64,000 bases of DNA from Alkalicoccobacillus plakortidis (GTDB lineage: Bacteria; Bacillota; Bacilli; Bacillales; Bacillaceae_D), in NCBI RefSeq assembly GCF_023703085.1, contig NZ_JAMQJY010000004.1:1-64000 (forward strand), in the 5' to 3' direction. The notes under the pieces are model-generated. The model searched no databases. It was not told the DNA's origin and was given only the letters and a program-made list of their open reading frames with translations. Shown one piece after another: positions 2,735 to 50,873 of the stretch; the first letter of the stretch is position 1, and each line of letters opens with the position of its first letter. Both the position numbers and the translations under genes were made by a program.

Positions 2735-2942
2735 ATTCTTTCCACATTCTTTCCATAACTATCTAACTTAAACTAAAATACATGTAAGAGAGAACGGTTT
2801 TATATAGTTGAACGAGGTTAGTGTAGTCATGTATATCATTTCGCAAAATTGAGGGCTTAGTGAGGTTAAACTCGTGGAGGTTCGACTCCTCTCAACCGCA
2901 TACCAGTAGTACCAATGCTTTCAGAGCTTTGGTGCTTTTTTT
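2735..2942 (+). repeat. att1: leader A, tRNA-Leu 3'-half core, terminator
   Basis: Leader A opens with tandem 11-mers ATTCTTTCCAC and ATTCTTTCCAT (2735-2756). The core is 2849-2900, haplotype II (GGCTTAG, variable arm GAG/CTC, TTCGACTCC). The terminator is 2911-2942 (ACCAATGCT, loop, AGCTTTGGT, T-run). The right flank (2943-3050) matches the right flanks of att5 and att10. Confidence 0.9.
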
Positions 2943-3110
2943 GGGTAATATATAGTCGATTAAATCTTGAAACTTTCCAAATTCTTTTTTGCTTATTTTC
3001 TATATATATTTACAAATAACTAGAATGTTCGTGTTTTAAGGAAATAAACAATTACGTTCGGATAGAAAGGTTATGTGTTCTTCATTATAATCGAGTTATA
3101 AATTATACAA
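2943..3110. other. Right-arm region downstream of att1, no gene
   Basis: No convincing gene. GTAATATATAG, ACTTTCCAAATTCTTTTTTG, TATATATTTACAA and AGAATGTTCG occur here in the same order as after att5 and att10. This is probably a conserved right arm of the integration site with decayed direct repeats. Confidence 0.55.
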
Positions 3111-3111
3111 A

Positions 3112-3158
3112 TAAAAAAACGCTCAAACTCTTATCAAGAATCGGTTTGAGCGTTTTTC
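3112..3158 (-). terminator. Bidirectional hairpin terminator
   Basis: ACGCTCAAAC pairs with GTTTGAGCGT around a loop of about 16 nt, flanked by A- and T-runs on both sides. It lies downstream of the minus-strand lipoprotein gene and is suited to end that transcript. Confidence 0.75.
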
Positions 3159-3236
3159 ACGAAACTTACACAAGATAAATGTATAAGACTCATTGATTTG
3201 ATCTTTTTCATATAAAATGAGAGTAAGTGGGTACTA

Positions 3237-3638
3237 TCAATCTATTTCTAATATCTCGCTTAATTGTTTTGAAAGATCGTCATCCAATAGTAAAAAACTA
3301 TTCTCTTCATTATTAAACCCTCTAGAAATTATGAATGTACTATTGTCGTTATTCCAAATAGAAACATACATAACGATTGTTGAGTCAGCTTGGTTATCAA
3401 TTCTAACGATATGAACGGGTTCTTCCTTAGGAATTTCGTTAGGTTGACTCCCTAAACTTTCTGCTTCATTTATAATCGACTTGAATTGATTAATCTCTTC
3501 CTCATTGGTAATCACTTCTTGTGAGAATATCACATTGTTTTCATCATCATATTCTCCAACTGATAATTGTTCGTCCGTCGAGTTACAAGCAGTAAGAAAA
3601 GTAGCACACACTAAAACACCAACTAGTTTTTTAAACAT
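3237..3638 (-). CDS. Small putative lipoprotein
   Basis: A 133-aa protein with a type II signal peptide: a short Lys-rich start, a hydrophobic stretch and the lipobox LTAC at about residues 15-18, so it is likely tethered to the outer face of the membrane. The rest is acidic with no recognised domain. ATG at 3638 is preferred over GTG at 3647, because GGAG is 10 nt from the ATG and almost touches the GTG. It diverges from the secreted protein gene at 3752 across a short region with a perfect dyad. Function unknown; an immunity partner for the secreted protein is possible but unsupported. Confidence 0.7.
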   Translation of the reverse strand: MFKKLVGVLVCATFLTACNSTDEQLSVGEYDDENNVIFSQEVITNEEEINQFKSIINEAESLGSQPNEIPKEEPVHIVRIDNQADSTIVMYVSIWNNDNSTFIISRGFNNEENSFLLLDDDLSKQLSEILEID

Positions 3639-3697
3639 TTTGAACACACTCCAAAATTATCAAATTAATTACAAATATATCTTGTGAAAAATATTCC

Positions 3698-49112: not shown

Positions 49113-49136
49113 TGAGTACGGATAGGAGATAGAAAG

Positions 49137-50564
49137 ATGGAGAAGAATTTTCCTGAGAACTTTTTATGGGGAGCTGCAACATCTTCCGCCCAAATAGAAG
49201 GCGGTTGGAATGAAGGTGGCAAAGGTGCAAGCGTAATGGACATACTAGGCGGGAGCATTAATGGTAGTGTGTTTAGAAACCAAACGAAAGAAGTTATGCC
49301 TGATGTTTTTTACCCTAGTCACGTAGGCGTTGACTTTTATCATAATTTTAAAGAAGATATTCGAATGTTTTCAGAGCTTGGGCTAAAAGCCTATAGAATG
49401 TCTATCGCATGGACTCGTATTTTCCCTAATGGAACTGAGCATACTGCGAATGAAGAAGGTCTGAAATTCTATGACGATGTATTTGATGAGTTAGCTAAAT
49501 ACAATATAGAACCGATTGTCACGATCCTTCACTATGATGCACCGCTCAATTTAGCCAATGAGTTTGGAGGTTGGCCAAATCGCAAAATGATTGATTTTTA
49601 CGTAAAGTATTGTGAGACACTATTTACTCGCTACAAAGGAAAAGTAAGGAACTGGATTACTTTTAATGAGATTAATTGTTTATTGGTACCGTTTAGTATA
49701 TTAACAGCAGGAACCGTGAATATGGATTTGAAATCAGAAGATAATACAGATCAACTTAGATTTCAAGCCTTGCATAATCAATTCGTGGCAAGTGCATTAG
49801 CTGTACAACTAGGTCATAAGATTGATAAAGATAATAAAATTGGTTGTATGATTGCTTATATGTGTAATTACCCACTAACGTGCAGACCAGAAGATATATT
49901 AATGGCTCAAAAAGAAGATCAAATTAAGAATATGCTAAGTGGAGATGTACAAGTTAGAGGGGCATATCCTCGATTTGCTAAACGTTATTTTAAAGACAAT
50001 AACATTAAAATTGAGATGTTACCTGAGGATAATGAAATTCTCAAAAAAGGAACCGTTGATTTCTACTCATTAAGCTATTATATGACAAACTGCATTGGGA
50101 CAGATGAAACCCAAGAAAAAACAGCTGGTAATCTTGTATATGGAATGAAAAATCCCTACTTAGAAGCTACAGAGTGGGGATGGCAAATTGATCCATTAGG
50201 CTTAAGATGGGTTCTGAATAACGTATATGATAGATATCAACTTCCAATAATGATTGTAGAAAATGGAATGGGTACTGCTGATGTAGTTGAGAATGGCGAA
50301 ATTAATGATGATTACCGTATCGATTATCTTCAAAAACATATTAAACAGATTTCAGAATCGCTTGAAGATGGCGTAGAAGTGATTGCTTATACACCATGGA
50401 GTGCTTTAGACTTAGTTAGTCTTTCAGGTGGCACTATGAAGAAAAGATACGGGTTTATATATGTAGATAAAGACGATCATGGCGAAGGAACTTTGAAAAG
50501 AATTAAGAAGAAATCCTTCTATTGGTATAGAAATGTGATTGATACAAACGGAGAAGAAATCTAG
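49137..50564 (+). CDS. 6-phospho-beta-glucosidase (GH1)
   Basis: A 475-aa GH1 enzyme starting FPENFLWGAATSSAQIEGGW. The acid/base Glu is in WITFNEIN (about residue 180) and the nucleophile Glu in MIVENGMG (about 378). It hydrolyses the phosphorylated sugar delivered by the upstream PTS. Its last 105 codons and downstream terminator are duplicated in diverged form at 54727-55137. Confidence 0.92.
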   Translation: MEKNFPENFLWGAATSSAQIEGGWNEGGKGASVMDILGGSINGSVFRNQTKEVMPDVFYPSHVGVDFYHNFKEDIRMFSELGLKAYRMSIAWTRIFPNGTEHTANEEGLKFYDDVFDELAKYNIEPIVTILHYDAPLNLANEFGGWPNRKMIDFYVKYCETLFTRYKGKVRNWITFNEINCLLVPFSILTAGTVNMDLKSEDNTDQLRFQALHNQFVASALAVQLGHKIDKDNKIGCMIAYMCNYPLTCRPEDILMAQKEDQIKNMLSGDVQVRGAYPRFAKRYFKDNNIKIEMLPEDNEILKKGTVDFYSLSYYMTNCIGTDETQEKTAGNLVYGMKNPYLEATEWGWQIDPLGLRWVLNNVYDRYQLPIMIVENGMGTADVVENGEINDDYRIDYLQKHIKQISESLEDGVEVIAYTPWSALDLVSLSGGTMKKRYGFIYVDKDDHGEGTLKRIKKKSFYWYRNVIDTNGEEI

Positions 50565-50626
50565 GCAAAAACTGTTTTAGATTCACTTTGTCTAAAAATC
50601 ATTTCTATTTCTAACAGATGTGAAAA

Positions 50627-50658
50627 GTGTCAAGGTTATTATAGCTTTGATGCTTTTT
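50627..50658 (+). terminator. Intrinsic terminator after the GH1 gene
   Basis: GTCAAGG, loop, GCTTTGAT-like pairing with TTTTTTC. The related sequence after the duplicated GH1 fragment (55107-55137, ATCAAAG...CTTTGAT) shows both descend from one terminator. Confidence 0.65.
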
Positions 50659-50695
50659 TCATTTATTAAAGGTCATCGTAGCGTACCTATATCAG

Positions 50696-50873
50696 GTAGT
50701 AATGAATGATATTATATGAAATGAGCGCAATTGATTGCAAGTGGTGTGTGTTTTTTAAGGAGATAACACGTTTCCACTGTATTGAGGCTTAGTAAGGTTA
50801 AACTCGTGGAGGTTCGACTCCTCCGGTCCGCATACCAGTAGTACTAAGGCTTTAACAGCTCTAGTACTTTTTT
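50696..50873 (+). repeat. att20: partial leader B, core, terminator
   Basis: Leader B lacks the TTCACC repeats but keeps TATGAAATGAGCGC, GTGGTGTGTG and AGATAACACGTTTCCACTG. The core 50782-50832 is haplotype II, with one G lost (TTGAGGC) and acceptor end CCGGTCCGCA. The terminator is 50842-50873 (ACTAAGGC, loop, AGCTCTAGT). It is the last core seen in the window. Confidence 0.85.

Follow-up and report, generated by a model that had tools for sequence, protein, structure and literature searches.

A tandem row of tRNA-Leu(GAG) 3' halves in Alkalicoccobacillus, probably built by cassette accretion through ICE-type integrases

The first 64,000 nt of a 210,633-bp contig of Alkalicoccobacillus plakortidis (contig C4 of genome G000), referred to here as the window, carry a long row of copies of the 3' half of one tRNA gene, tRNA-Leu(GAG), with small gene sets between them. 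Which recombination process has lined up so many tRNA ends in one place, and do the gene sets between them still move? The reading that we favor, at a probability of about two in three, is tandem accretion of mostly recombinase-free cassettes at a shared tRNA gene by tyrosine integrases of integrative and conjugative elements (ICEs) of the ICEBs1/Tn916 type, the cassettes likely still being moved in trans. The row is tied to candidate integrases by sequence, in that the repeats in two classes of leader match the ends of ICEs at the same tRNA gene.

The row and its tRNA gene

The repeated core is 54 nt long and corresponds to the 3' half of the tRNA-Leu(GAG) gene, from the anticodon loop (ATTGAGGG) through the CCGCA end. 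A 28-nt core pattern, searched on both strands of the window with up to 8 mismatches, identifies 19 cores on the plus strand and none on the minus strand, with none expected by chance. At up to 3 mismatches 16 cores are found, compared with none in 100 shuffles, and a scripted scan returns the identical 19. Together with a twentieth, decayed core at 5058, these bear out the count of about 20 plus-strand copies given in a first-pass annotation of the window, and its view that the tRNA 3' half has been used serially. The extent it assigned, 2735..50873, proves to be part of a longer row, since further cores on C4 at 75349, 76386, 77904 and 80021 carry it past the window to ~80 kb. Two features that it ascribed to every core are not universal. 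A leader is recognizable at 15 of the 19 (14 by script and one, before 17678, by eye), but the four cores at 19042, 26652, 34968 and 40400 are 3' parts only that have lost it; and a terminator-like match lies within ~25 nt after 18 of the 19, but 82 nt away at 34968. Site spacing ranges from 197 to 8319 bp, with a median of 1860. ARAGORN finds no complete tRNA in the window. Some cores, mostly those farther from the tRNA gene, end in CCGGGCCGCA in place of CTCAACCGCA, and the variable arm alternates between GGG-CCC and GAG-CTC across the row; these variants perhaps record past states of the host tRNA gene.

Four other Alkalicoccobacillus genomes (G001 to G004; one genome per species was compared) place the start of the row. 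Cores are present in all five genomes, and in each of the four relatives the leftmost copy is an intact tRNA-Leu(GAG) gene, which closes a cluster of seven tRNA genes, Asn-Ser-Glu-Val-Asp-Leu-Leu. Its anticodon stem-loop reads CTAGG-TTGAGGG-CCTAG, or 5+7+5 bp. With the tRNA gene included, there are 8 sites in G001, 16 in G002, 12 in G003, 4 in G004 and 23 on C4 of G000; the G001 count takes in two weak sites (473403 and 475480) that were added by hand to the inspection of repeats, the P'-side check, and the site spacing and counts only. The gene that was expected to the left of the row is thus intact in the relatives, but is not found in the G000 stretches scanned by ARAGORN, which are part of the assembly, and no core match from the searches of the G000 genome is an intact tRNA-Leu(GAG) gene. 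The DNA preceding the cluster in G001 sits at the left end of G000 contig C3 (C3:872), so the G000 gene most likely falls in the assembly gap between C3 and C4. On the right, synteny resumes at ~128.0 kb in G000 and at 554.5, 139.8, 121.8 and 710.0 kb in G001 to G004, respectively. The variable stretch from the tRNA gene to this flank spans ~81 to at least 128 kb; patches within its right portion are partly collinear.

Searches of genomes for cores, akin to the search for leader B plus core that the first-pass annotation proposed, return rows in all five genomes of the genus and no long row outside it. There, no genome has more than two core matches, either among family genomes (36 of 41, up to 3 mismatches) or in an order sample of 397 genomes that includes four of the genus and lacks G003 (exact pattern). 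Both searches undercount: G029, a genome from a different genus of the same family, has three cores, and the exact pattern sees only two each in G001 and G004. Long rows are therefore seen only in Alkalicoccobacillus among the genomes searched, and short or diverged rows may exist elsewhere. Cytobacillus purgationiresistens has one class A leader with a core. Among the matches listed from the open-access literature, a scope outside which most subscription papers lie, none describes an array of this kind in Alkalicoccobacillus.

Leaders, candidate integrases and a proposed mechanism

The core listing across genomes comprises 71 matches, of which the 47 with a leader class are used for the leader counts; left out are eight matches at tRNA-Leu genes (four of them tRNA-Leu(tag)), one C1b left end and 15 classless matches. 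There are 13 leaders of class A, 26 of class B, five of class C and three of class D. Each class has its own sequence, and all follow a common plan of ~11-bp tandem repeats ending ~90 bp before the core. Tandem repeats at a fixed distance from the core are the layout of a tyrosine-integrase attP site. The 860,633 bp of DNA searched contain 21 strict B repeats, all at attachment (att) sites: of the 19 upstream of a core, 18 lie at -109 and one at -99, and two more are on the P' side. All ten strict A repeats are also at att sites, five at -112 and five on the P' side at +127 or +136. Neither repeat appears in 20 first-order Markov simulations of equal length. Looser patterns detect repeats in 20 of the 26 leaders of class B, 9 of the 13 of class A, 3 of the 5 of class C and 2 of the 3 of class D, the loose A and B patterns occurring 14 and 22 times, respectively, in the same DNA. 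Judged by these repeats, the leaders resemble a single arm of an attachment site for a tyrosine integrase. Many also start with an inverted repeat, CGAAY...RTTCG, ~150-200 bp before the core, and shared cassette bodies end near this repeat where checked.

Other identities for the leader sequences were considered. At Rfam gathering thresholds none is a known RNA, the only matches being a T-box (52385) and, at 29251, a c-di-AMP riboswitch. A phage or plasmid vector was rejected as a candidate: nine plasmid and five phage records match the tRNA part only (23% of the query), no plasmid or phage record covers 80% of leader plus core, and viral contigs searched with one core pattern and two leader patterns gave no match.

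Candidate integrases are found beside the tRNA gene. The first unit after it in G001 and G004 is an ICE of 25-26 kb, the G004 element being a near copy of that in G001; both have an A-type repeat on the P' side and a D leader at the right end. The G001 element encodes a 381-aa integrase with Arm-DNA-bind_4, SAM-like and integrase domains, together with an FtsK-type protein and a relaxase (Pfam). G029 has a 29-kb ICE in its tRNA-Leu(GAG) gene, with a 367-aa integrase and matches to 20 of the 22 G001-ICE open reading frames (ORFs). Both its ends carry B-type repeats, one placed 118 bp past the TTGAGGG of its core and the other 110 bp ahead of that of the second core; a 4-kb unit follows, whose own right-hand leader is of class B with a single repeat. 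The Arm-DNA-bind_4 domain of its integrase scores 21.7 and 25.2 in two scans, around the cut-off of 22.3. All three elements have the hallmarks of the ICEBs1/Tn916 type, namely an arm-binding tyrosine integrase, a relaxase, an FtsK-type coupling protein and a tRNA att site, assigned by Pfam in G001, by match to the G001 ORFs in G004 and G029, and also by integrase domains in G029. A tyrosine integrase, such as the first-pass annotation sought to the left of the window, lies next to the tRNA gene in these three genomes, but no candidate able to act emerged from the G000 assembly in searches with PF00589 and for integrases like those of G001 and G029 (E 1e-80).

The integrases of the G001 and G029 elements, here called A and B, are 45% identical in the arm domain and 71% in the catalytic part. 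A truncated integrase in G003 is closer to B (87%, 167/191) than to A (69%, 132/191); its unit starts with a B-type P' repeat and has a class A leader on the right. A relative of the B integrase (64%) also adjoins tRNA-Leu(GAG) in G074, a genome from another family, where a B-type P' repeat (TTCACCA tandem) is present. Repeat class and integrase type go together in these lineages, the right-hand leader in G003 excepted. More distant integrases at tRNA-Leu(GAG) in G250 and G293 have other repeats, as seen by eye. A 41% relative in G272, one of six genomes retrieved at E 1e-80, was set aside, as no tRNA lies beside the integrase. The cargo of the G001 ICE includes an LlaJI-type restriction endonuclease along with a C-5 cytosine methylase (C23 465963-470372). 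G000 itself has an ICE of the same family at a gene named by eye as sufB-like (C1 ~1547390-1572800); its integrase is distant (30% over 204 residues), and its far end has a class D leader and a tRNA-Leu core, suggesting that the integration module has been exchanged.

These elements point to the following mechanism. Crossover would take place within the 7-bp TTGAGGG, as described for ICEBs1, whose 17-bp attB in a tRNA-Leu gene has 5-bp inverted repeats around a 7-bp crossover region, and which also uses secondary sites (PMC3715440; this and the later comparisons follow excerpts of the cited papers). In layout, the ICEs here match that 5+7+5 design, but ICEBs1 is a single complete element of B. 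subtilis with no cassette array in the account excerpted (PMC3715440). Each insertion would rebuild the tRNA with the incoming 3' half and leave the leader and the old 3' half behind. The repeats would be integrase arm-binding sites, A/D and B served by the two candidate integrases and the TACTCCA-type repeats of class C by a further one. The cassettes would have lost, or never had, an integrase of their own, and their route between cells is probably the ICE itself. Two integrases and a few hundred bases of DNA would suffice for a direct test of the trans-mobilization of such cassettes.

Insertions away from the tRNA gene bear on this mechanism. In G000, a 6.4-kb block (C1 942665-936308) with three further cores (940135, 938466 and 937759) separates a LytR-CpsA-Psr gene from a subtilase gene, which are direct neighbors in the four relatives. 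On its left, CACTAGG-TTGAGG leads into the 3' half brought by the element; on its right, a leader-A-like CCGCAAA is succeeded by TTTGAGGG and then by unrelated flank. To judge from these ends, the block has the structure that would be expected of an insertion where only the left half of the tRNA target exists. Left ends at C1 460949, beside htpG, and at two places in G033 also read CTAGG-TTGAGGG; the right end of the insertion beside htpG was not found. At the secondary site of G033, ARAGORN calls a tRNA that is regarded as spurious, its 5' half being unlike the tRNA-Leu(GAG) gene.

Shared cassettes, decay and homologous exchange

Parts of the array appear to have moved between species. With high-scoring segment pairs below 800 bp excluded and ICE stretches set apart, 12 array stretches of at least 800 bp are common to species pairs. 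Ten of these are 87.2-98.6% identical, compared with means of 71.1-75.7% for the right chromosomal flanks of the same pairs: 98.6, 96.2, 95.7, 91.2 and 87.2% for G000-G002 (flank 75.7%), 91.7 and 88.4% for G000-G003 (71.1%), 94.5 and 87.3% for G002-G004 (71.9%), and 88.1% for G002-G003 (71.3%). G001 and G004 share ICE stretches only, at 81.5-94.1% (flank 87.0%). At the level of single cassettes, the oxidoreductase cassette at 41129-42488 is 98.6% identical to G002 31781-33140 and has a second copy in G000 (C4 79976-81260, 86.9%), and the MarR/pentapeptide cassette is also present twice in G000 (17557-19030 and 42696-44173, 93.6%). A larger block, 44446-54712, matches G002 45704-55819 at 95.7-96.2% except around the site at 50781, which is absent from G002. 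Between the anchors shared by these two genomes (the cassette at 41244 and the block at 44446), G000 has one cassette and G002 six further sites. The body common to G002 36743 and G004 658226 begins exactly at the core although the leaders differ (A, B). The first-pass annotation had asked for a comparison of strains; at the level of species, cassette gain and loss are seen, with a core boundary where leaders differ. A further reading, c1-c2-c3-c4 in G002 against c1-c4 in G004 with exact joins, was rejected: the c1 right ends differ by 1.5 kb, and only the left boundary of c4 is exact. We infer movement of single cassettes in trans, as far as sequence can tell, because cassettes without ICE genes are shared and their arms match.

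Could the cassettes instead be the deletion remnants of full ICEs or integrative and mobilizable elements (IMEs) that entered the tRNA gene one after another? Such serial decay is the usual source of tandem cis-mobilizable elements (CIMEs; PMC5704250) and would involve no single-cassette movement. Several remains suit it. The first-pass statement that the row has no recombinase holds insofar as no protein on C4 matches PF00589, the six matches of the genome all being on C1, but a broken integrase relic lies at 10066-10347. It aligns in tblastn with the B integrase of G029 (E 6e-19) and with the G001 integrase (E 5e-14), and lies on the side where the ICEs keep int. G003 has its truncated integrase and an FtsK fragment in the array, P'-side arm repeats persist at 14866 and 26564, and intact ICEs hold the first position in G001 and G004. 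The ICE genes themselves are nearly absent. Searched by tblastn with the 22 mechanical ORFs (at least 90 aa) of the G001 ICE, the five arrays (525 kb) yield only four matches, two in G000 (C4 1-128 kb), two in G003 and none in G001, G002 or G004, compared with 21 ORFs matched in the G004 ICE and 20 in the G029 ICE as controls; the second G000 match covers 75 residues at C4 81820-82038. Bodies without ICE matches are common to species at up to 98.6%, and most A and B leaders keep their arm repeats at a fixed distance. Decay explains at least two units, but as the origin of every cassette it is rather unlikely.

The repeats also invite homologous exchange. Under this alternative, an integrase made the first sites only, and RecA then recombined the ~160-bp leader-core repeats after natural transformation or other uptake. 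The repeats are long, similar and in one orientation, the leader class is swapped on the same cassette body, and a 10-kb multi-gene block is shared at ~96%. Against it, the left ends of the secondary sites share just CTAGG-TTGAGG with the tRNA site, two cassettes whose leaders are unlike are joined at the core, and the strict A and B repeats are confined to att sites. RecA exchange may contribute to the row; as its main source it is quite improbable.

Integrons are arrays of small gene cassettes served by a recombinase, with the integrase gene beside the array and attC sites that recombine in folded, single-stranded form. Like them, the row consists of small gene units, and its sites all point the same way; its two twice-present cassettes might recall plain segmental duplication. 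The sites, however, are tRNA 3' halves with arm repeats, and both target and sites are of another kind; no integron integrase adjoins them, there being no PF00589 protein on C4, with the C3-C4 gap unread; and the duplicated stretches, separated by 25 and 39 kb, stop where the cassette does. A true integron or a segmental duplication is extremely improbable, and the term integron-like used in the first-pass annotation describes an analogy, not membership.

Accretion by ICE integrases, which we favor over these alternatives, must itself be set against several observations. First, the arms are incomplete. Recognizable repeats are missing from 6 of the 26 class B leaders, 4 of the 13 of class A, 2 of the 5 of class C and 1 of the 3 of class D, and also from the last leader of the 6.4-kb secondary-site block. 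The loose patterns for classes C and D lack specificity (22 and 25 occurrences, only three and two at their leaders), so the case for arms rests on classes A and B. The P' arm is absent from most cassettes, which have the leader arm only; strict P' repeats are found at seven sites in the five genomes, two of which are ICE left ends, and at none in G002. Second, no A- or B-type integrase is present in the G000 assembly at E 1e-80, with five of seven candidates scored, and the units at G000 9989 and G003 12091 contain ICE relics, so some cassettes are decayed ICEs. Third, sharing is uneven. Two stretches are no closer than the flanks (G002-G003, 72.0%; G000-G001, 75.3% against 74.4%), and no stretch of at least 800 bp is shared by G000-G004, G001-G002, G001-G003 or G003-G004. 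The htpG region of G000 and G002, at 82-86% identity, also exceeds the flank mean, although it stays below most shared cassettes of that pair. Fourth, one body can have two leader classes: G000 5112-9809 has leader C and its G003 counterpart leader B, and G002 36743 has leader B and G004 658226 leader C. The accretion mechanism alone does not explain such swaps, which RecA exchange would help to explain.

More tentatively, the one-armed leaders may form compatibility classes (A/D, B and C) that decide which ICE integrase a cassette can use, with cassettes stored behind the tRNA gene and shuffled singly between species on visits of a matching ICE. The row could then be a second, independent answer to the integron. 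If the classes are indeed exclusive, they would be a source of compact site/integrase pairs.

Known systems and further features of the locus

The first-pass annotation knew of no Bacillaceae system with so many recombinase-free cassettes at one tRNA site, but other phyla are known to have tandem, partly recombinase-free islands at one tRNA or tmRNA gene (PMC3146451, PMC10872708, PMC7771536), and such elements are also on record under the name of CIMEs (PMC5704250). CIMEs and their accretion have been reviewed for ICESt1-type elements, in which an ICE or IME decays to a CIME and accretes with another element (PMC5704250). The units here are alike in lying between att sites, in a row and beside related ICEs, without integration or transfer genes: a search of C4 1-128 kb, confined to G001-ICE-like genes, gave the two tblastn matches above, one of which is the relic. 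CIMEs retain attL and attR sites and move with, or through, an accreted element; here, most sites have a core and one arm, with P' arm repeats mostly absent. Compared with the systems in that review as excerpted, this row differs in comprising ~20 short units, most of which keep one arm repeat at fixed spacing.

In Dehalococcoides, more than a dozen direct repeats of the ssrA 3' end lie within 100 kb, and 15 islands without an integration module are suggested to be cis-mobilizable (PMC3146451). The tandem islands at this single RNA gene include some that have an integration module and some that lack one. The Dehalococcoides system is distinguished by its tmRNA target, a CcrB-type serine recombinase, a 20-bp repeat with a conserved 15-bp motif beside it and no duplicated islands per strain, and the excerpted description reports no arm repeats (PMC3146451). 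The target here is tRNA-Leu(GAG) and the integrases found are of the tyrosine type, serine recombinases not having been searched for. Additive islands bounded by recurring tRNA 3' ends beside a tRNA gene are known from Methylophilaceae, at tRNA-Lys (PMC10872708), and Actinomarinales (PMC7771536), and additive islands also occur in Alteromonas (PMC5217437). The present locus, variable and with recurring tRNA 3' ends that bound gene cassettes, is an additive flexible genomic island in this sense, but the excerpts on Methylophilaceae and Actinomarinales mention neither arm repeats on the cassettes nor an integrase matched to them. Tycheposons are tRNA-flanked cargo elements with their own tyrosine recombinase (PMC10872708), whereas C4 has no intact one.

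The sites and units of the window are collected in Table 1.

Table 1. Sites, units and associated features in the window
Position	Strand	Feature	Method
2736..2901	+	Leader A (arm repeats at -112) and core	
4660..4825	+	Leader A and core	
4826-5057		Very short unit	
5058..5100	+	Decayed core; homology to a G003 cassette begins here	
9881..10042	+	Leader C (repeats at -108) and core (core at 9989)	
10066..10347	-	Tyrosine-integrase relic, 94 codons, internal stops, just inside core 9989	tblastn
14630..14792	+	Leader B (arm repeats at -109) and core	
14866..14884	+	P'-side A-type arm repeat, +127 from core start	
17678..17716	+	Core with internal deletion; preceding leader B seen by eye	
17717..19041	+	MarR and pentapeptide cassette; second copy 42859-44172	
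19042..19069	+	Core 3' part, without leader	
21494..21546	+	Core with shortened leader B	
23987..24149	+	Leader B and core, CCGGGCCGCA variant	
26328..26490	+	Leader B and core	
26491..26679	+	Nearly empty unit, ~190 bp: terminator, A-type repeat 26564 (+127 from preceding core), truncated core	
34968..35010	+	Truncated core, without leader	
36457..36619	+	Leader B and core	
37396..37561	+	Leader A and core	
38468..38630	+	Leader B and core	
40400..40427	+	Core 3' part, without leader	
41135..41297	+	Leader B and core	
41298..42488	+	Oxidoreductase cassette; near-identical in G002, diverged copy C4 79976-81260	
42707..42858	+	Leader B (arm repeats at -99) and core	
44284..44445	+	Leader C (start approximate) and core	
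44446..54712	+	Block: beta-glucoside phosphotransferase system, 6-phospho-beta-glucosidase, TetR, two small multidrug-resistance-type transporters, class I (W/Y) tRNA synthetase	
50781..50833	+	Core, CCGGTCCGCA variant; leader B decayed	

The cargo, identified by Pfam or NCBIfam, includes a terpene synthase, a Mn catalase, TrkH/TrkA K+ uptake, VOC, Nudix and MarR with pentapeptide proteins, a beta-glucoside phosphotransferase system, TetR with two small multidrug-resistance-type transporters, a class I tRNA synthetase and a lactococcin-972-like bacteriocin set, for which both matches are under the curated cut-offs. The genus thus offers a natural experiment in the spread of small gene sets, such as those for K+ uptake, beta-glucoside uptake, catalase and Nudix proteins.

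Several smaller features accompany these genes. Two copies of the 6-phospho-beta-glucosidase gene 3' end, each with the terminator and 86% identical (window 50251-50699 and 54728-55177), flank a 4-kb TetR/small multidrug-resistance/T-box/tRNA-synthetase segment, as if another element had inserted at the 3' end of that gene. Within this variable region, a T-box leader precedes the class I (W/Y) tRNA synthetase gene (window 52385-53909). The c-di-AMP riboswitch (29251-29403, minus strand) stands ahead of TrkA/TrkH-type K+ uptake genes, and a second TrkA/TrkH pair is present at 32855-34880. Outside the window, self-comparison of C4 reveals a long tandem repeat array at 166530-167772.

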